A stretch of 60,857 nucleotides of DNA. Origin: Saccoglossus kowalevskii (Eukaryota > Hemichordata > Enteropneusta > Harrimaniidae). This document shows, in pieces, positions 3,289-57,330 of the stretch (within the stretch, counting starts at the first letter, position 1; each line of letters begins with the position of its first letter). The position numbers were made by a program, and so were the translations under genes. The notes below the pieces were generated by a model. It made no database searches. It saw only the letters and a program-made list of their open reading frames with translations, and was not told where the DNA came from. The stretch spans positions 296,381 through 357,237 of the forward strand of contig NW_003114958.1 in assembly GCF_000003605.2 (NCBI RefSeq), in the 5' to 3' direction.

Positions 3289-6200
3289 ATGAAAATCGCT
3301 TCGTGTCAGGTTATTATTTTCTGCATTTCCGTGGTTCAAATTATTCAGATCGTAACTGCATGTGGACGATCAGGTGAGTTTGACATGTTTTATAAGTATA
3401 TATATATATAGGGTATTTCTGAATATTCTATTTGGGGTACGGAGCTACTGAGATTCGCGATCGATAGACGTGACGAAAATCATCGTACCACAACTTATTA
3501 GCCATTTTGGGGTGTTGTCAACACAGATTTTCGGTGTTTGAGCAGACTGTCTGCAGCGAATCAATGAGTACATTGCGACGTACTACCCACTCCGTGTCTG
3601 TACATTCACGGTCGCGAACTTGGCCGAGGGCCACGTGTTCTTGTGTTCGGACCTGTGGGTCGGTTAGTACAGAGTATATAGGGTTTACTGTCCGCTCGGG
3701 AGCCATATTATTGAACAAAAAAGCGTGCCACGTCTGAAATTCAAACATTCTTTGAAGAAACATATATTTTTGCGGATATGCGTGGTGACGAATATGATTA
3801 TAGTGTATGTACCATGTACTTATTGGGGCGACAATGAATTTGGAGAATCCAGCAGTATAGTCTCTAAAAATACATGCCTGCAATTCACACTTCCAGGAAG
3901 CAAAGATGGATACGGCAAAGAAGACAGCAACTACACCGGTATATTCAATTTATCTGATTTAAATGCAACAGGCGTATACAATTCTACGGAAAGTGTACTC
4001 AGTAAGTGTGGAATTTAATTGTTTTTTGTATGTATTACGTCACCAGGGTGAACAATACACAATTACACGTCAAGATTATTAATGATATTAAACAACATTT
4101 TTTTGTAATGTTTACACTTATTTTCAGTCGGGATGAAAACGGAAGACTCAGAGGTCGGGGAAGTTCGAAACGCACCGGCCAATGTACCAAAGCAGGCGCC
4201 AAGTAAGTAGATGGCACCGGCGATTATTTCATGCGGGGACCATTGTTTGCACGAGTTGATCGGCCCGCCGTCCCTCGGTGTTGAGAGACGGTGATTGGCC
4301 GGAAGCAGATGAGAATGCAGATGACCGAACGCGTTTAGATTGTCACGTGACCTGTATTCTCACAAAACACGATCATGCTGTATACAAACGCTACCAGAAT
4401 AACTGAATACTGATACATGTATACTGTAAATGCATTGATTATTCGTTGGCTTTTAGTTTCGCTAATAATATGTAAAATTAGCTAAATTAAAACCAGGTTC
4501 ACATCATGTAAAACAACAACAGAACGCACTGTTTTGCTGGCCACTTCCTAAACTTAAAAAAAAAAACCCAGCGAATATGCTCAACACATCGAAATAGTCA
4601 GTGAATATACACTATACTACGCAAAACACGCTATTTGGTGATAGGTATATGTGTCTCAGGTGATCGGGTGTTTATTTTTATCTGCTGACCTCGTTGATAT
4701 GAACAGGGAACTGATATCAACCACGTAAACAAAGAGAGAGAGGTCAGGTAGATATCGACTGACCTATGACGTTTTTATCACCACGAGACAGATATATAGT
4801 GGTGCCTGAATACCAGAACTTGCGTTATAAAATATGATAACGTTGTTATCAATGATGATTAAAATTTCACCTTACGGATATATACAGATAAAATGCACGT
4901 TCTTTCATCAATAACCATAATGGTATTTTAACAAACAAACAAAAACAGAGACGAAAAAAGTTATGTTTCACGATTTTGAAATTGTGTACATTTGGTCCAA
5001 AATTAAAGAAAATACATAAAAATGCGCAGATTATTACACCAGAATTTTTAGCGGGAATAATGAGGGCGTAACATATGCAATGGTTTAAATGGACACACAA
5101 ATGTCTGAACACGTTAGAGAGATTACACATATCTAAGCGTCACAGTGTCTGATAGCCTGTTCCATGTGACGTATGCAAATCGCGTAAAAATACATTGTTT
5201 GTTTGTTTACACAAAATTCCAGCATATGCTGTGGTTACCGCCAATTTACAAATACAGTCCCAGTTTAGTTTCCACTCATACTGATTTGACGACGTCAATT
5301 TAAAAATAACTTTCATCTGCACCAGAAACGTGAACCTGGAGAGAAAATCACACTTACTGTGATTTGTCGGATGTTTTAAACGGTCATTTCAACGGAGTTT
5401 CTAAGTGCATTTTAACAAAAATTAGAAATTAATCGTAAACAACGTCACGAGTAATCTGAAACGATTGTGATGCAATTATCTAAACTAGTAGAATGAAACA
5501 ATATTACCGGCCGTAGACTGGCCGCAGTGTCACAATTTTCAACTTAGCCGCTGAAACCCGGGGAGCTTTCATGAGTTAAAGAAACATTAAGCATTATTAG
5601 TTTAGAATAAAGACACACATACGTGCTAGAAATGAATGTCAGCGAGACTATCACAGCTACGCGAATAAGATACTAGGATTCCCCACGGTCGAAAGTTATT
5701 TCGGTAAACAACTCATCGTATACGTGTGTACTCGTAATAATTCAAGACACCCCTGTCTGTCCTCTTTTCAGGAATTACAATGAAGTATCGATATTGCCTA
5801 TGTAAGCGTCGTTTGGATCTTTCAGAGATGAGATATGAAGGTGAAGCGATGCTGAACTATGACGACATCGACGAGGAATACGACAGTGAGAACCAAGAAC
5901 TGACGTTTGCTGATTTTGAATTAATCTCCGATATACGTAAGCGACGGAGGAGATCACAGAGGTCGTCACGGTCAAAACGATTCATATGGTACGGTCCGTC
6001 GCATACCTATGTGGAGTTCCGGGACGTCGTCTTTGATTTTTCCAGTGATAACGATATTGGTAGGTAGATGTCGGTGTTTGGTCACTTTATGTATTAACAG
6101 AACGCGTAATTGGTACAAGTAAATGAAAAGTATTGCTTGACGTTATAAGAGGAAAAATGTGATTGGTTCATTGAAAACAATTTCGTAAGTGAATGTAATT

Positions 6201-6939
6201 GTTTGGTTGATGTATATAACAGAGGACATGATTTGATGATTGGCCCAGTGATGATGATATTGATTAGTAAATGTGCTTGATATGTTGATTGATTGATTGA
6301 TAGATGTGACGTGGGTAAGTAAATTTATTTAATAAGTTGGCTGATAACCACGGGTTATTGGTCCATGATAACAATGTCGGCAAGTAAATGTTGATTGGTT
6401 GGTTGACTGGTTGATTTTATAAGAGAACACATGATTCATTCAGCGTGTGTAAGTAAGTAAATTCCGTTGATTGGTGAATGTTACAGAATTAAATTTAATA
6501 TATTCGTATAATATTGGGCTATAGTTTGTTGAATATTCAAATAAAGCACGACCCAAATAAAATCATTGGCAAGTTTCCTAGAATACTTCCAGCGTTTTCA
6601 GGATTTTAGTTACGACGTTTTTGTCGATCGAGTTGAAATTAGTGTAATTATCCTAAATGCGTTTCTTTTGTTTTCTGAAATGATTTCCATGCTACCTATC
6701 CAGGTGAAAATCGAGAAGACAGATGTTGCGATTATCAGCCCCTGGAAGACGGCTACAGCGCATGCTCACTACAAAATATCCGCCAGTTCAACAGAAGATG
6801 GGAAACTCATCCAAGCACAAAACGATATCGATTGATCGTAAATAACTGTCAACATTATACCAACGCGTTGATAAGATATCTCGCACGTGACTGCTTGATT
6901 ACTAACCCTGAATTCGACGAAAGACCGTTGTTGACTTGA
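3289..6939 (+). CDS. Secreted proprotein with C-terminal His/Cys domain (five exons)
   Basis: Exons are 3289-3373, 3897-4001, 4128-4202, 5772-6059 and 6704-6939. All four introns are phase 1 with good GT-AG borders, and the joined frame has 263 codons (262 aa). Residues 1-24 are a hydrophobic signal peptide. Exon 2 carries four N-glycosylation sequons (NYT, NLS, NAT, NST) in about 20 residues. Exon 4 encodes an acidic stretch and then a very basic run (residues 144-158) ending in RSKR, a furin-type site. The predicted mature part (159-262) begins FIWYGPSHTYVEF and contains VNNCQHYTNALIRYL around Cys233. A His on a strand (His166) followed by an NC-Q/E-H motif is reminiscent of NlpC/P60 or LRAT-like permuted papain folds. 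The mature part has five cysteines (192, 193, 205, 233, 248), so one is unpaired. The family assignment is inference; the exon chain is read directly. Confidence 0.75.
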
Positions 6940-10509: not shown

Positions 10510-11442
10510 TCATGGATGAACAGCCGGTATAAACTGTAACAACGTAATTACAGTGAAACCGATTAGAACACACAACGTTTTCAACATTCGATTTTCGTTT
10601 TCCTTTAGCTCGTACGGAAGTATCTCGAAAAATGTTAGATATACGAGTAAACCGACAGCGACGCCCTGCATCAGTCCGCTAACAAAGCTCATGGTCAAAG
10701 TGGACGAAGCGGACTCGGTAATCGCGATGCCGATTCCGATGCCGAGCGGGAAAACCGCGGCGTGAAGACAGACTAGTACGACTCCAGCTGATTTACGCAG
10801 CCAGCTTCTACGGATGTTGACCGCGAAACTGAAACTCACCGGCCCTTCGTGGCAGGCTATAGCGGCGAAAAGTATCAACACGCTGTGAGGGTCGCTCAGC
10901 AAACCTAAAACGATGCCTTCAAAAATACCATGTAAACAGAGTGCGATGAAAAACATGTACGATCTTAGCACTGACTGTATGTATTCGAGTTCTTCTTCAT
11001 GAAGCGTGCGAATCTCGTCATCATCTTGGCTGGCATGAATACTGGCATCGGTGTAGTACCCATATTCTGTTGTCGTCAACGGGATATCCTCCGTTGCCGT
11101 CTTCGTCAACCGTTCTTTGCACGCCAGAATTCCCTGCTCTATGACCAGCATTAGGAATATGCCCGCACACGCCAAGAACTCAGCCGCAGGGAAATCGGGA
11201 TCGATCTTAACATAGTCGCTGCTGAATAAAAACTCCCTACGCACTTCGGGTAGCAGGTGTAACATCGCTGTAGCCAAAATGACCCCACCGGCAAAACAGT
11301 TGAGAAATCCGAACAACCGCTCCATGCCAGCCCCACGATAAGTTGGGGCGCATTCCGCTAGAAATAGGGGTATCAATCCGCATATAATAGCGATGACGAA
11401 CAGTCCCAGAAGGGCGATGATCTTCGCGTCAATGGCTTCCAT
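10510..11442 (-). CDS. ZIP family (SLC39) metal ion transporter
   Basis: This is a 310-residue multipass protein of the ZIP family, closest in layout to the ZIP1/2/3 group (about 310-325 aa), which imports zinc and related divalent metals into the cytosol. Eight hydrophobic segments are visible. TM2 contains GGVILATAMLHLLPE, TM4 contains LCLHGIFEGIVLGLL (the HxxxEG metal-site signature) and TM5 contains ACHEGPVSFSF. The TM3-TM4 loop is acidic (a run of D and E) rather than histidine-rich. The start is the ATG at 11440-11442. The frame stays open upstream, but on the minus strand a splice acceptor (TTTTGTAG then GAG) places the exon start at 11473, so the upstream codons are probably intron. 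The coding region is therefore one exon with an intron in the 5' leader. Having Glu after the TM5 His, where I would expect Lys in this subgroup, is worth checking. Confidence 0.88.
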   Translation of the reverse strand: MEAIDAKIIALLGLFVIAIICGLIPLFLAECAPTYRGAGMERLFGFLNCFAGGVILATAMLHLLPEVRREFLFSSDYVKIDPDFPAAEFLACAGIFLMLVIEQGILACKERLTKTATEDIPLTTTEYGYYTDASIHASQDDDEIRTLHEEELEYIQSVLRSYMFFIALCLHGIFEGIVLGLLSDPHSVLILFAAIACHEGPVSFSFAVNIRRSWLRKSAGVVLVCLHAAVFPLGIGIGIAITESASSTLTMSFVSGLMQGVAVGLLVYLTFFEILPYELKENENRMLKTLCVLIGFTVITLLQFIPAVHP

Positions 11443-11473
11443 CTTGTCTGATCGCAAATAGATGATTTCACTC

Positions 11474-12259
11474 CTACAAAAGTGTGTAAGGCTCAAACAA
11501 TATTAAAATACATGAAACACAGACGCTGTGATAACAAACCAGACAAACCCAGCATGATGTTACGTTGTTATGTCATACTCAGTTCCTTATTTGAGTGGTA
11601 GTTTGCTGAGCTTCAATTGACGGTAGAGTTCCTGTTTTCGAATCGACAGACTGAAACTATTATTACCAATTACAGGCATATGGTGGATATATTTAATTCT
11701 GAACGAGAACCTGTAACAACCCGTTGTGTTGTTAAGGGCATATCATTATAAAAGTAGCAACTCGTTAGCGCAAGCTGTTGCGTTTTGTGTGAAATTCATA
11801 AAAATATACGATATCGTGTAATCCCCTCCCTTGGACGCGTTCTTGATTATTGTTGATTATTGACGCAGACTACACACAGCTCATCGCTACAGAGCACGCG
11901 CGAATTTGTGAAATTCCAACCGACGTCAATACAAAAAAACATACTGTTCTTAGTGATTTGCTAAAAAGAACAACTATCCAATCAAATTGAGTTGCTTGGC
12001 ATTGCTCACCCTTAATGACGTTACTTTGAGGGTTATTCAAGTTATATCCAGGCCCAGTTTGCGAAACCCGTATTTGCGGCTAACCCGAAGTCCAGGAAAT
12101 ATAATGTGCATAATGAAAACGTGACGTCATCATATCAATTGCCAATTCACAATGGACTTTTACGAGCTGCCAACACTATCAGACAAAATGAGTTGTCCGT
12201 GTCACTGTAGATACATAATTGCGATGTAATATATGGGCATTTATTCACGATGACACGTA
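11474..12259. other. ZIP gene upstream flank, no coding exon seen
   Basis: This should contain the 5' intron, the leader exon and the promoter of the ZIP gene on the minus strand. I could not place the leader exon. The sequence is AT-rich without recognisable repeats up to the assembly gap. Confidence 0.4.
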
Positions 12260-12309: not shown

Positions 12310-13080
12310 CCCACTCTCCCGGTAAGTGTTCCTAGTGATGGTAAAATTATAGTTATTAGCAAAATGTCTACGAGAATATTTACCCAAATATTAGTTAAAA
12401 GGAAATCTCCCCCCCCGAAAAGCAAAATATACTACCAAAATTTGTTTCCTACTATAACTTTAGACTGGAAAAAATTGTATGCACTTCCGTACAAGGTTAC
12501 AATAGAATCCAAGTGACGTGCGTTTAATTGTAAAATTTTGAGAAATATTCTATATATTAATTTTACTTTATTTAAAATGTCCCCAGCTTATGCATCATCT
12601 CCCCTGTGTACTTTTTGTAAAAAAACAGATGAAACTTTACTACATTTATTTGTAGACTGCCAATATTCAAAGGAGCTTTGGGGTAAAATATTTCATAACT
12701 GGGGCAAATTTTTAAATCTAGACAGTCTTCCAGATAAACATCAATTACTACTTGGGGATGGAAATTGTAGTACTATTACAAATCAGGTTATATTACTTGC
12801 TAAACGGACTATATACACTGCTAGGTGCCAAGATACCTTACCCAGTTTCATAGTATTAAAACATTTAGTGTTGAATATTTATAAAATTGAAAAATATATT
12901 GCAACTCGTAAAAATATTATGGAGCATCATGTTAATAAATGGAGTGATTTTCCAGTCGAATAAGTAAAATGTTATGTTCTTTACCTTACTCTGATAATTT
13001 GTTGTATTTGTGATTGGGTTGTACTTTTAGTTCTGTTTCCTTTTCATGTACTGTTAATTGAATAATAATTAAAAAAAAAA
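12310..13080 (+). mobile_element. Non-LTR retrotransposon 3' end (ORF2 C-terminus), degenerate
   Basis: A frame from the gap to 12963 reads like the C-terminal tail of a LINE ORF2. It runs from WKKLYALPYKVTIESK through a stop codon at 12514-12516 and on in the same frame into a Cys/His zinc-knuckle segment, LCTFCKKTDETLLHLFVDCQ, typical of the region after the reverse transcriptase. The stop is at 12961-12963. About 105 bases of 3' sequence end in an A-rich tail at about 13061-13080. The internal stop and the missing 5' end (lost or in the gap) make it inactive. The finger pattern suggests an L1/Tx1-like or related clade, which is inference. Confidence 0.8.
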
Positions 13081-43700: not shown

Positions 43701-46700
43701 TTGATAGCTACTCATGTGATTGTAATTCAGGTAGGACATGGGAAAAACATATAAATTAAAAATATTTATAGTGATATAGAGAACAAAAAATCTGACTACC
43801 ATGCTACAACACTACTCACAATTTTGAATTCTGACACGACATTGAATAAAGCGTGTGATTTAATTGTAAATGTTTAAATAAAAAACTTGTTTGTTTATTG
43901 GCTGTTTGAATATACATTATAAAAATTATCACTTATCAGGTCTACTTGTCCGTTATTTAGGGTCGGTCAATGTGGCAACACAAAAACTCGTTAGTCAGAG
44001 CTCAACAGAGGGACTCTATGAGGCTGTGAATGCCATCGATGGGATTTTGACTGCTTGTATGCGCACAGTTGAAGAATACGAACCGTGGTGGCAGATTGAT
44101 CTAATGGAAAATCACTGCATTCATCAGATCGTTGTCACTAATAGGCAAGATTGCTGTGGTAGGTTTGCTTTTTCTTGCATTTGCGATTGTATTTTAAACT
44201 GTCGTAGTTTAGCTGAAGTGAAATATTCCGTACATTTGATAACACATCCAATGCTAAAAATTGTTATTCTAGAAAACAAAGTCCTAATTTACAACATCAC
44301 ATTGCATTTTATATATCTCTAAGCAATCATTGATAATATTATTATATTGCAGCTGAAAGACTAGAAAACGCCGTGACTCTCGTTGGTTACACAGCAGAGC
44401 GTGACGCTGCTGTTCAGTGTGGAAGTATTGTAGATGCACAAAGTGCCCTGCAAGCTACAGTAGAGTTTAACTGTGACACGGCAACCAGAGGGAGATATGT
44501 CACTTTCATGTTACAGGAAACTACCAACATTCTGAGTCTCTGTGAAGTTGAGATTTATGCCCCAGGTAAGTAAGTCGAAATGTATAATGTTAATATGGTT
44601 TTAGTGATCTTAGTGTAGAAGCATTGAGAATAGGGAGGGTGTGATAAATAACCTACCATCTGACATCACTTGATACAAGTGGGTGCGTGGAGTATATAGT
44701 GTATTGCGACACGAGTATCAACCTGTTCTACGGATAAGCGATCATAATAATAACCTTTTTAATGATAACCTTTTTATCACTCGACCAGCTTCGAGTGTCA
44801 GAGAGACAGAAAAACAAATATGATTTTGCGGAACAAGGTTACGAATTATATTCTAATTTCTAGTTGGTCATGGTTCGTCAGAAATTGTAACTTTCTTAGC
44901 AATATTTTTATTAACATCTCATATTAACAGTCCTTTAGCCAGCACCACTTCAGTTGTTTGGTAATATGACATTATATTACCACGATCACAATAAAATATT
45001 TATAAAAGCTAGGTAATTGGCAGATATTATCGATTACTATAAATGTTTAATGTGCAGTTCATGGCGGAAAACTATGGCACCATGAATAACTTAATTGCAA
45101 GCGATCACTATTTCACCATTACTTCACATTATAAAACCCGGAAACACCCTTTTTTCACATTAATCTCTTCGTATTCGCCATTGTATCAAATTGAGCACTT
45201 CCCCATACCTATACTCGACAAAAAATGTTCCTTACTCTGAGCCAAGCCCAGAACGACATCAAGGTGGAACATAACATACAAATTATACACAAAAATCTTA
45301 AAGAGGAAAATAAATATGATTAACAACAGATTTGCAAACTACAGTAAACGTGTCTTTACGGGTTTTCAAGACATATAACAAAGTATAATTTAACAATATA
45401 CACCAACGATATAAGAAATCGACAAGTACAATCCTTTAGCACACAGTCGGATCAGTAAAAATGTACAAACAAGTGATTTGAAAAAAATAAGTATATTTCG
45501 AAAAATTGGTTACACCCATATTGAATCACTTTAAGTTAGAATCAAACAATATCTCTAACATACCCGACCTCAAAATCAGACACGTTACAGTGATGCCATC
45601 TGTGTGACAGTGCTAGCATAATCATTCACAACTCATTTTATCTGCATGCATAACTTTTAAAAGCCCTTGGTTTAACACATACACTGACAAAGAAAAATTC
45701 TTTTCAAAAACTCCGCGTATGTGCTTCAGGTTCTAGATGATTTGGAAAATGTATTGAAAGGAGAAAAACTATATTACAATCTGATCTATTTTTTTAAAAA
45801 CAATAATTTTGCTCATCAGTATCACCACCATGCGAACCAACAAATATTTTACCCACAGTCGTCAATAAACGAATGGCCTTGTAGGTCAGGGTAGCATGTG
45901 GTTAAAATCAAAACTGAATAAAATGTGTAAAAATCCAATTTATTCGTTATCACATTTTGTATTATTCTTCAACCTGCATTTGTCGAGAGGTTCCAAAACA
46001 GCAATGATCAGCCTCATAGTTTGTATAGTAAAACATATAGCTCTATCCACTAGAACATTAGTGTAGGATTACTTTAAGGCTATATACTGTATGAAACGGC
46101 CTGTTTAGCATAGAACAAATATATGACTGTACTAAAATATTATTCTCTGATTTTGCCTTTCATTGGTTAAAGAAGCTGATCTAACTGTATACGCATTATG
46201 TACACTGTAACAATGTATCCATGGGGTGTCACTGACAACTGGGAAGGTTGAACTGGGACGTCTACTTCTATAGTCGGTGAAATAATTATAGCAAATCAGC
46301 TTTACAGAGACGAATTTGAGCTCAGTACGTGTGCTCTGGCATATTCACTTTTGAATGGTTAGAATCATGTACATGTTTATTCCCAGAGATGGTAAATCTC
46401 ATGAGTTGATTTATTATTTTGAACACCTGTTTTACAACATTAATGGGGAGACAGCTATTTGTTTTCATTTACGAGGAATTAAACATAAGACAGCATATCA
46501 CTTAACTGTATTTAAGGTGAAATATACTTACCATTATTTTATACATGTGACATCGAACATGTTACATCAGAAATTACATTTGACTAACTCTAAGTATTTT
46601 AATTCTGTTACAGCTCGCAGACGATACGAACTGGACTATGATAATATAGACTGGAATCAAGCAAATGCGTCTTGCCATGCAAGAGGGGCACATTTGGCAA

Positions 46701-48640
46701 AGATACGAAATGCAGAAGAAAATGCTTACCTGCATCAACTTATTCAACAATACGGAATTTTTTGTAAGTAATAAATGCTGGAAAGATATAACCTGATAGT
46801 ATTAGGTGATATAAATCCTGTGTATCAGATCAGTTTAATTCAAGTTACAGTCTCAAAATACTGGGTGGTAGATGTTAATGTAATTTGGGGCTCACTCTCA
46901 CTAACATAATCAGTATAAGACTGCGTTATTCCTAGCTACGTCGACACAATGACTGTGTTCCCGGATAATGGATATTGGTTTGAAGTAATTAATTGACTGG
47001 TGATGTTCGTATAATAGTTTCATATACAGTTGACGATTAAAAACGAAATTAACCCTGTTACGTAAAAAAACAACAAGAAATATAACAGAAATAATCCTAC
47101 AAAATAATATATCGCCAAATATGGAACTATGTAACACTATACCTCAACATACGCTTAATATGATACAATAAATACAACAGCGTCTAAATTCAAGAACAGT
47201 ATCACTGCTATACATTATAACTACGCGAACATGTCAAATAAATGTAATTACCCATTCAATGTCGAAATAGTGAATTGTAATTGAAAATTAGTGCTTTCAG
47301 CTTACTCGAATTCGATCACATAGCTCAGTAACATCTACATTCCCCGAACCATGCTGTTTACTATAGTCTTTTAATTACATACTTTTTACTCATTTTATAG
47401 GCAAATACAAGGTCAAATTCAATCTACCTTCGGTTTCAAAATTGTGCCCAAACTTTCCCACTGACACTTTACACAGAGAAAAGTGGGATATTTGTTGTAT
47501 ACCATTTGTTTTTAACATTTTTTTTAAATTCAGCTTCCTTCGAATGCAGAAAAATTCGACTAGCAACAAATTTCCCTTTCCAAATTTGTTGAATACGTTA
47601 TCAATGGGCAATTTTAGTATACTGCAAAACAGACTGGTTATTTCATAATTTGTCACAAAAGTATTCATAGATTGTTGAATCATTGACACTTGATATATAG
47701 CACTTTTAAAAAGGCTGACGTCACTTATTCAGAAGTCCTATTTTCATTTAAAAAATAGATGTTTAGGACATATTTTGGTTGAACATTCGGGTGAAGCAAT
47801 AGAGCGTGATGAAGCTTGAATGATTCGTTGAAATTTCATTCCTACTGAAAGTTGTTAATATGGATATTTTGGTATTTTACAGTTCATTTTGGGTAATCCA
47901 TAATCTCTGAAATCTTACAGTGGAAAGTTGAAGACATTTGGGATCTTTCATATAATCTAACGACTATTTGAATTGGTTAGAAAACAAATATCAAGTCTTA
48001 TCGACAGTGAGATAATAATCATTGAACATTATTACGACCCAGAGCGTACTTGCACGCCATTAACGTGTTTACATATTATTATAAATTGACCACGTTGTTA
48101 AAAGTAATTAGCACATGATTCATAATTATAGATTCACTGTTTCTGGCAATCTGATTATATATCCTGTTTCACTTATTATACGTACAGATGGTTAATACTT
48201 GTGACGTGAATATGTCCACGCCTTTTCTATCAACCACCTTTACGATTACGTGACATGATAATTCCGTCGTATATTCAACTTTTTATAATTATTGTGCTAT
48301 CAGGGGGCTGGTGGACCGGGGTGAACGATATCAGAACTGAAAGTCAGTATGTATACGCAGATGGCACTCCGCTTATATTTGTCAATTGGAGGCAGAGTCC
48401 TTTGGAACCAAGTGATGCAAATCACGAAGACTGTGCAGTGGCAATGTAAGTACATGATCATATTGTACCGGACATGTACGTTTGACTGGTAAATATATTA
48501 TACCATATACTCATAGAGGTATTTTCAAATTATTTATACTTGATATTATCTTTCTTTATTTCAGACACGCGTTGAATCTAATGTGGAACGATGTACCGTG
48601 TTTTCACCTGGGTCATTTTATTTGTGAATACGATGAATAA
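40744..48640 (+). CDS. Type II membrane protein: EGF repeats, F-type lectin and C-type lectin domains (ten exons)
   Basis: Exons are 40744-40773, 41081-41225, 42994-43137, 43363-43476, 43644-43730, 43961-44158, 44353-44565, 46614-46763, 48304-48445 and 48565-48640. The joined frame encodes 432 aa. A second acceptor at 43939 would add seven residues. Introns are phase 1 except the first (0) and last (2). Residues 24-42 form a membrane helix after a short basic tail (SSRIAR), with no signal peptide. EGF-like units span about 59-173. Residues 174-310 are an F-type lectin domain ([39 protein letters not shown]); the fucose-contacting His is replaced (ACMRT). Residues 311-432 are a C-type lectin domain with [24 protein letters not shown] and FICE. 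WND is intact, but the usual EPN or QPD calcium/sugar motif reads EPS. A surface glycan-recognition role is inferred. It is probably a paralogue of the gene at 20322. Confidence 0.85.
44566..44995 (+). promoter_or_regulatory. Possible alternative 3' end without the C-type lectin domain
   Basis: If the donor at 44566 is not used, the frame ends three codons later at TAA 44571-44573 (giving APGK). An AATAAA follows at 44990-44995. The product would end where the paralogue ends (APMI and stop). The donor itself is a perfect CAG|GTAAGT, so the spliced form should dominate. Confidence 0.35.
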
Positions 48641-53412: not shown

Positions 53413-56400
53413 ATGGTAATCTGAATATAATAATGTCAATACCCTAGTTGCTGGTAATATGGTCGATACAGGGATCTGAGTGTATCAATGCCAATAACAT
53501 TGTTGCTGGTAATATGGTGGATACAGTGATCTGGGTGTACGTAACATCAATATCCGTGTTCCTAGTAATGTGCTGGATACGGTGATCTGAATTTAACAAT
53601 TCCAACACCTTCATAGATGGTAATATGGTGGATACAGTGATCTGAGTGTACCAATGTCAATACCCTTGTTGCTGGTAATATGGTGGATACAGTGATCTGG
53701 GTGTACGTAACGTCAATATCCGTGTTCCTAGTAATGTGCTGGATACGGTGATCTGAATTAAACAATTCCAACACCTTCATAGATGGTAATATGGTGGACA
53801 CAGTGATCTGAGTGTACCAATGTGAACACCCTTGTTGCTGGTAATATGCTGGATACGGTAATCTGAGTGTACCAATGTCAATACCCTTGTTGCCGGTAAT
53901 ATGGTGGACACAGTGATCTGAGTGTACCAATGTCAATACATTTGTTTCGGGTAATATAGTGGACACAGTGATCTGAGTGTACCAATGCCAATGCATTTGT
54001 TTCGGGTAATATAGTGGACACAGTGATCTGCGTGTGCCAATGTCAACACCCTTGTTGCTGGTAATATGCTGGATACGGTGATCTGAGTGTATCAATGTCA
54101 ATACATTTGTTTCGGGTAATATAGTGGAGACAGTGATCTGAGTGTACCAATGTCAATACCCTTGTTGCTACTATTATGGTAGATACAGTGATCTGAGTGT
54201 ACCAATGTCAACACCCTTGTTGCTGGTAATATGCTGGATACGGTAATCTGAGTGTACCAATGTCAACACCCTTGTTACCGGTAATATGCAGAATACGGTG
54301 ATCTGAGTGTACCAATGTCAATACATTTGTTTCGGGTAATATAGTGGACACAGTGATCTGAGTGTACCAATGTCAATACCCTTGTTGCTACTATTAAGGT
54401 AGATACAGTGATCTGAGTGTACCAATGTCAACACCCTTGTTGCTGGTAATATGCTGGATACGGTAATCTGAGTGTACCAATGTCAATACATTTTTTTCGG
54501 GTAATATAGTGGACACAGTGATCTGAGTGTACCAATGTCAATACCCTTGTTGCTACTATTATGGTAGATACAGTGATCTGAGTGTACCAATGTCAACACC
54601 CTTGTTGCTGGTAATATGCTGGATACGGTAATCTGAGTGTACCAATGTCAACACCCTTGTTGCCGGTAATATGCAGGATACGGTGATCAGAGTGTACCAA
54701 TGTCAATACATTTGTTTCGGGTAATATGGTGGACACAGTGATCTGAGTGTACCAATGTCAACACCCTTGTTGCTACTATTATGGTAGATACAGTGATCTG
54801 AGTGTACCAATGTCAATATATTTGTTTCGGGTAATATTGTGGATACAGTGACCTGAGTGTATCAATGTCAATACCCTTGTCGCTGGTAATATGGTGGACA
54901 CAGTGATCTGAGTGTACCAATGTCAACACCCTTGTTGCTGGTAATATGCTGGATACGGTGATCTGAGTGTACCAATGTCAATACATTTGTTTCGGGTAAT
55001 ATAGTGGACACAGTGATCTGAGTGTACCAATGTCAATACCCTTGTTGCTACTATTATGGTAGATACAGTGATCTGAGTGTACCAATGTCAACACCCTTGT
55101 TGCTGGTAATATGCTGGATACGGTAATCTGAGTGTACCAATGTCAACACCCTTGTTTCCGGTAATATGCAGGATACGGTGATCTGAGTGTACCAATGTCA
55201 ATACATTTGTTTCGGGTAATATAGTGGACACATTGATCTGAGTGTACCAATGTCAATACCCTTGTTGCTACTATTATGGTAGATACAGTGATCTGAGTGT
55301 ACCAATGTCAACCACCTTGTTGCTGGTAATATGCTGGATACGGTGATCTGAGTGTACCAATGTCAATACATTTTTTTCGGGTAATATAGTGGACACAGTG
55401 ATCTGAGTGTACCAATGTCAATACCCTTGTTGCTACTATTATGGTAGATCCAGTGATCTGAGTGTATCAATGTCAATACCTTTGTTGCTGGTAATATGCT
55501 GGATACGGTAATCTGAGTGTACCAATGTCAACACCCTTGTTGCCGGTAATATGCAGGATACGGTGATCTGAGTGTACCAATGTCAATACATTTGTTTCGG
55601 GTAATATGGTGGACACAGTGATCTGAGTGTACCAATGTCAACACCCTTGTTGCTGGTAATATGCTGGATACGGTAATCTGAGTGTACCAATGTCAATACC
55701 CTTGTTGCTACTATTATGGTAGATACAGTGATCTGAGTGTACCAATGTCAATACATTTGTTTCGGGTAATATTGTGGATACGGTGACCTGAGTGTATCAA
55801 TGTCAATACCCTTGTTGCTGGTAATATGGTGGACACAGTGATCGGAGTGTACCAATGTCAATACCCTTGTTGCTACTATTATGGTAGATACAGTGATCTG
55901 AGTGTATCAATGTCAATACCCTTGTTGCTGGTAATATGGTGGATACAGTGATCTGAGTGTATCAATGTCAATACCTTTGTTGCTGGTAATATGCTGGATA
56001 CGGTAATCTGAGTGTACCAATGTCAATACCCTTGTTGCTGGTAATGTAGTGGATACAGTGATCTGAGTGTACCAATGTCAATACCCTTGTTGCTACTATT
56101 ATGGTAGATACAGTGATCTGAATGTATCAATGTCAACACCCTTGTTGCTGGTAATATGCTGGATACGGTAATCTGAGTGTACCAATGTCAATACCCTTGT
56201 TGCTACTATTATGGTAGATACAATGATCTGAGTGTATCAATGTCAATACCCTTGTTGCTGGTAATATGGTGGACACAGTGATCTGAGTGTACCAATGTCA
56301 ATACCTTTGTTGCTGGTAATATGCTGTATACGGTAATCTGAGTGTACCAATGTCAATACCCTTGTTGCTACTATTATGGTAGATACAGTGATCTGAGTGT

Positions 56401-57330
56401 ATCAATGTCAATACCCTTGTTGCTGGTAATATGGTGGACACAGTGATCTGAGTGTACCAATGTCAATACCTTTGTTGCTGGTAATATGCTGGATACGGTA
56501 ATCTGAGTGTACCAATGTCAATACCCTTGTTGCTACTATTATGGTAGATACAGTGATCTGAGTGTATCAATGTCAATACCCTTGTTGCTGGTAATATGGT
56601 GGACACAGTGATCTGAGTGTACCAATGTCAATGCCTTTGTTGCCGGTAATATGCTGGATACGGTAATCTGAGTGTACCAATGTCAATACCCTTGTTGCTG
56701 GTAATATAGTGGATACAGTGATCTGAGTGTACCAATGTCAATACCCTTGTTGCTACTATTATGGTAGATACAGTGATCTGAGTGTATCAATGTCAATACC
56801 ATTGTTGCTGGTAATATGGTGGACACAGTGATCTGAGTGTACCAATGTCAATACCTTGTTGCTGGTAATATGGTGGATACGGTGATCTGAGTGTATCAAT
56901 GCCAATACCCTTGCTGCTACTATTATGGTAGATACAGTGATCTGAGTGTATCAATGTCAATACCCTTGTTGCTGGTAATATGGTGGACACAGTGATCTGA
57001 GTGTACCAATGTCAATACCCTTGTTGCTGGTAATATGGTGGATACAGTGACCTGAGTGTACCAATGTCAATACCCTTGTTGCTGGTAATATGGTAGATAC
57101 GGTGATCTGAGTGTACCAATGTCAATACCCTTGTTGCTACTATTATGGTATATACGGTGATCTGAGTGTACCAATGTCAATATCTTTGTTGCTCGTAATA
57201 TTGTGGATACTATGATTTGAGTTGCACAATGTTAACCCCTAGTTGCTGGTAATGTGGTGGATACGGTAATCTGAGTGTACCAATGTCAATACCCTTATTG
57301 CTGGTAATATGGTGGATACGATGATCTGTG
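53413..57330. repeat. 55-bp minisatellite array, about 71 units, with higher-order structure
   Basis: The unit runs AATACCCTTGTTGCTGGTAA, TATGGTGGATACAGTGATCT, then GAGTGTACCAATGTC (55 bases). Units fall into types by their middle bases: TGCTACTATTATGGTAGATA, TGCTGGTAATATGCTGGATA, TGCCGGTAATATGCAGGATA, TTTCGGGTAATATAGTGGAC and TGCTGGTAATATGGTGGACA. The first type recurs at 54155, 54375, 54540, 54760 and at 56190, 56355, 56520, 56740, that is every 220 or 165 bases. So groups of three or four units were copied together. The first seven units are the most diverged and include 56-base versions. Minus-strand frames run through several units but are a by-product. Confidence 0.97.

Follow-up and report, generated by a model that had tools for sequence, protein, structure and literature searches.

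The window, a 60,857-nucleotide stretch of a Saccoglossus kowalevskii contig (NW_003114958.1, positions 296,381 to 357,237, forward strand), carries a gene of five exons spanning positions 3289-6939 on the plus strand, which was delineated from splice signals and an open frame of 262 codons followed by TGA. The gene has the following features:

3289..3373, plus strand: exon 1, with the start codon and a hydrophobic leader
3897..4001, plus strand: exon 2, with four N-glycosylation sequons
4128..4202, plus strand: exon 3, a spacer of the pro-region
5772..6059, plus strand: exon 4, with an acidic stretch, a basic stretch ending in RSKR and the start of the tail, including His166
6704..6939, plus strand: exon 5, carrying the C97/PPPDE-like half (Tyr226, Cys233) and the stop codon
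6955..6960, plus strand: ATTAAA, a possible polyadenylation signal

Elsewhere in the window lie a ZIP zinc transporter (10510-11502, minus strand; a single, apparently intronless frame of 330 residues, E 4.6e-56), a frame that by eye resembles the C-terminal end of a non-LTR retrotransposon (12517-12963, plus strand), an MFS transporter exon, and two closely spaced exons of F5/8C type and C-type lectin type (43882-44322 and 46355-46771, both plus strand), possibly parts of one lectin gene. A minisatellite with a 55-base unit occupies 53432-57328 (about 71 copies, 83% matches), and a 196-residue open frame at 53562-54152 falls within it.

Analysis of the exon boundaries revealed GT..AG introns in all four cases, with the donors gtgagt, gtaagt, gtaagt and gtaggt, and phase 1 at all four junctions. 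The original prediction of a five-exon chain joined in phase 1 is borne out by these introns, by the one open frame and by matching coordinates. Exons 1-4 are supported by splice signals and the open frame only, and exon 5 goes beyond chance, matching PF05903 of Pfam by itself with an E-value of 5.7e-6 and 26.7 bits. This confinement of homology to exon 5 would fit a faulty gene model, with exon 5 taken from a different transcript or the whole locus being a copy in decay. The codon score lends the five-exon model no support: it stands at -4.4 bits over the 262 codons, and the true frame ranks lowest of the three forward frames for both exon 4 and exon 5. Its training set consisted of two membrane-protein ORFs only, which makes it weak either way. 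We consider a faulty model very improbable, given the good splice signals and single open phase-1 chain, the orderly succession of leader, sequons and basic site, and a genome search that found no parent copy among the best candidates, the only ones scored.

That search covered 572 Mb in 4830 contigs. With the tail and the full protein as queries, it matched the window locus only, and the gene therefore appears to be single copy at that sensitivity. No tandem copies were found by tblastn (E up to 10) in the 20 kb upstream and 20 kb downstream of the window, and within the window itself the exons were accompanied by weak chance matches only. The C97 profile reached three places in the genome: an ordinary DeSI1-like exon at 53.3 bits (YHLFDHNCNTFTNEVAQFL), the window gene at 24.1 bits, and a place on contig C2540 that we took as a chance match (E 1, two internal stops, adjoining a gene that by eye is WD-repeat-like).

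The encoded protein begins with a hydrophobic leader (residues ~1-24, 9-residue mean up to 3.4), in agreement with the predicted signal peptide as judged by hydropathy only. It is followed by sequons at positions 40, 46, 51 and 57, an acidic stretch (residues 115-142, net -11) and a basic stretch (residues 143-158, net +10), which contains three R-x-[KR]-R matches at 144, 146 and 155 and ends in RSKR (155-158). The tail after RSKR comprises 104 residues and harbors the motifs GPSHTYVEF at 163 (His166) and VNNCQHYTNAL at 230 (Cys233); its cysteines number five in all, at 192, 193, 205, 233 and 248. The four sequons, the RSKR site, the tail length and both motifs were all found as predicted, as was the odd number of tail cysteines, which is consistent with the idea that Cys233 may be a free thiol.

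The original prediction had matched the tail to no named family and suggested a profile search. A Pfam search led from the Cys half to Peptidase_C97/PPPDE (PF05903), so that a named family does fit: within the whole protein, residues 199-246 match with an E-value of 5.2e-6 and 26.8 bits, slightly below the family gathering cut-off of 29.2 bits. As this cut-off was tested and missed, we term the protein C97-like and not a C97 member. The exon 4 part alone gave no C97 match, and neither NlpC/P60 nor CHAP gave a Pfam match to E 10, a range in which HMMER filters drop most matches above ~0.1.

In-silico alanine changes at eight positions of exon 5, scored against C97 from 26.7 bits, were costliest at Cys233 (-7.9 bits), Tyr226 (-7.6), Asn232 (-6.1) and Leu228 (-5.0), followed by His235 (-4.1) and Asn238 (-2.1), with control changes at Cys205 (-0.9) and Cys248 (+0.4). 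Most of the C97 match is carried by Cys233 and Tyr226. The active site of PPPDE1 is reported to consist of Cys108, His38 and Tyr101 (PMC3142127), and the spacing of 7 between Tyr226 and Cys233 therefore equals that between Tyr101 and Cys108. Pairwise comparison of the Cys half with human DESI1 gave a score reached by 7/2000 shuffles, and that of the whole tail a score reached by 24/2000; for exon 5, the corresponding counts were 11/5000 against part of human DESI1 and 0/5000 against the host's own DeSI1-like piece. A fold predicted for exon 5 from the single sequence is not usable, with a pLDDT of 49; it contains no helix and has a strand at Cys233 instead. Altogether, the C-terminal domain is likely related to the C97/permuted-papain superfamily, and the gene appears to encode a diverged form of an enzyme type that is already known, not a new family.

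The upstream half is different in this respect. In a two-sequence MAFFT alignment His166-Thr falls on the His-Thr of DESI1, but residues 87-185 score no better than shuffles (1454/2000 reach the score), and the score of residues 159-185 against DESI1 is likewise reached by 1058/2000. Because the His half scores like shuffles, we assign His166 as the putative base from its order and position. The permuted papain-like class proposed at the outset stands on the Cys side, with the C97 match and the Tyr-Cys spacing, whereas His166 lacks support from sequence statistics. Together with the shortness of the C-terminal domain, this could speak for a secreted permuted-papain domain that has lost catalysis, serves to bind some partner or ligand, and does not use His166 as a base. 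Yet Cys233, Tyr226 and Asn232, the three costliest of the eight alanine changes, are all kept, and we regard a dead domain as unlikely, though worth weighing, and catalysis by the tail as plausible.

Two features of related folds bear on the remaining residues. In LRAT, a His is followed on the next strand by a polar residue, and Asp177 could be the third catalytic residue if this pattern applies. The first strand of DESI1 lies well before its His, and for this reason the RSKR cut might fall inside the domain.

Since exon 5 resembles pieces of DeSI1, SAR324 and LRAT proteins, pairwise likeness alone cannot separate the families. The protein also shares the NNC-x-H-F/Y motif and the permuted order of LRAT/HRASLS (PF04970), and it might be read as a secreted enzyme of LRAT/HRASLS type, an acyltransferase or a lipid hydrolase, instead of a C97-type peptidase. 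Of the eight LRAT-type loci from the same genome (L041-L048), two were scored (L045 and L046). Exon 5 resembles each of them, with 1/5000 shuffles reaching the score in either case, and L045 has Cys-Cys and the stretch YxLxVNNCxH in common with the window protein. However, L045 and L046 are strong for LRAT (39.3 and 35.6 bits) and weak for C97 (16.3 and 15.3 bits), whereas the tail reaches only 13.2 bits for LRAT (exon 5, 13.6 bits), 11 bits short of the cut-off of 24.3, and LRAT is not listed by Pfam for the whole protein. The LRAT profile found nine places in the genome, eight of them over the cut-off, and the window gene is absent from all nine. Judged by these profiles, the window protein is on the C97 side (26.8 bits for C97 versus 13.2 for LRAT with the tail), without being a clean member, and an LRAT-type enzyme seems improbable. 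L045 (contig C457) and L046 (contig C2660) carry Cys-Cys plus YNLLVNNCEHF and YHLLVNNCEHF, respectively, and look intermediate between LRAT and the window protein.

Relatives were also sought elsewhere. Viral contigs yielded 8 pattern stretches with the window protein as query and 17 with human DESI1, none of them a relative, and the 6 and 4 loci from two motif searches all proved by eye to be chance once translated. Among phages, seven records came within E 10 (best ~1), unannotated Streptomyces phage ends that were taken as chance, as were the only sequence matches in the PDB, four CXCR3 constructs (best E 0.91). No relative was found among plasmids, and the protein matched nothing in NCBIfam or PHROGs. 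Prokaryote genomes searched with the two-sequence alignment returned 176 stretches and no relative, with chosen patterns that missed the Cys motif; a motif search returned 14 loci, and inspection by eye removed 12 of them, whose frames were short or unrelated. The two kept are lipoprotein-like proteins of SAR324, 58% identical to each other:

L011, 494-1075: SAR324 lipoprotein-like protein
L016, 3782-4360: SAR324 lipoprotein-like protein

Both resemble the window protein in having GHTG and then YYLxxNNCQHF, and their N-terminus is lipobox-like by eye, so perhaps they are exported; they differ in being bacterial and about 190 residues long. Their Pfam matches are weak only (C97, Lnb_N and LRAT), with 13.7 and 17.1 bits for C97, and the score of exon 5 against L016 was reached by 0/5000 shuffles. 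Structure prediction for the pair gave a pLDDT of 57, and a Foldseek search with the model returned 136 matches with E values up to 10 admitted, not one of them at or below 0.001; the CHAP domains found there (E 1.4 and 1.6, prob 0.10) carry no weight. The pair perhaps represents an undescribed exported permuted-papain family.

We propose, with a probability of roughly 0.5, that the window gene gives rise to a secreted proprotein and that the C-terminal domain of this proprotein is a thiol hydrolase of permuted-papain type, C97/PPPDE-like but short and divergent. The protein would enter the secretory pathway, where a furin-type convertase would cut after RSKR158 and free the tail domain, an activation that we infer from the site itself. 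Once freed, the domain would act as a thiol hydrolase in which Cys233, at the start of the core helix, serves as the nucleophile, His166 as the base and Tyr226 as the oxyanion-hole residue, while the remaining four tail cysteines could form two disulphides. The likeliest chemistry would be the cleavage of amide, isopeptide or thioester bonds, either extracellularly or in the secretory lumen. A variant places the first strand within the pro-region, and cleavage at RSKR would therefore yield a two-chain enzyme.

In the literature consulted, the targets described or proposed for C97 enzymes are ubiquitin or SUMO, which places their action inside the cell (PMC10318531, PMC3142127, PMC8795420), and lipid substrates are a speculation of one group (PMC3142127). 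A 2023 survey counts C97, C92 and LRAT as the principal circularly permuted families in its cluster II, and places C97 among the complete-core families without a catalytic triad (PMC10318531). Against this background, the unusual feature of the window protein would be the secretion of a C97-like domain. Among the matches listed in open-licence literature there is no secreted, propeptide-bearing C97 protein, and the nearest report concerns a PPPDE-like protein of the hen with a predicted non-classical secretion (PMC3495648). Such a secreted version, if true, raises the question of its extracellular substrate. It is conceivable, and suggested only tentatively, that an animal has moved a DeSI/PPPDE-type thiol isopeptidase fold to the outside of its cells, in the form of a zymogen that a convertase activates; with additional disulphides and possibly two chains when mature, it would cut extracellular amide, isopeptide or lipid-protein bonds.

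Compared to C97 proteins such as DESI1 (structures 3ebq and 2wp7), the window protein has the same Y-x(6)-C spacing, the same N-C motif with an aromatic residue at position +3 from the Cys, and the same order, in which the Cys lies towards the C-terminus and a His, here the putative base His166, comes before it. It differs in its leader, sequons, pro-region and extra cysteines, in its shorter tail (104 residues versus 151 profile positions), and in the residues after the Cys, which are Q-H instead of the N-T of C97. In the trimeric spike of cypovirus, too, a compact PPPDE core (~90 residues) is reported to be embedded in an exposed protein of larger size; that spike, however, is a viral capsid protein with a proposed cytosolic action, and its active site is buried in the trimer (PMC8795420).
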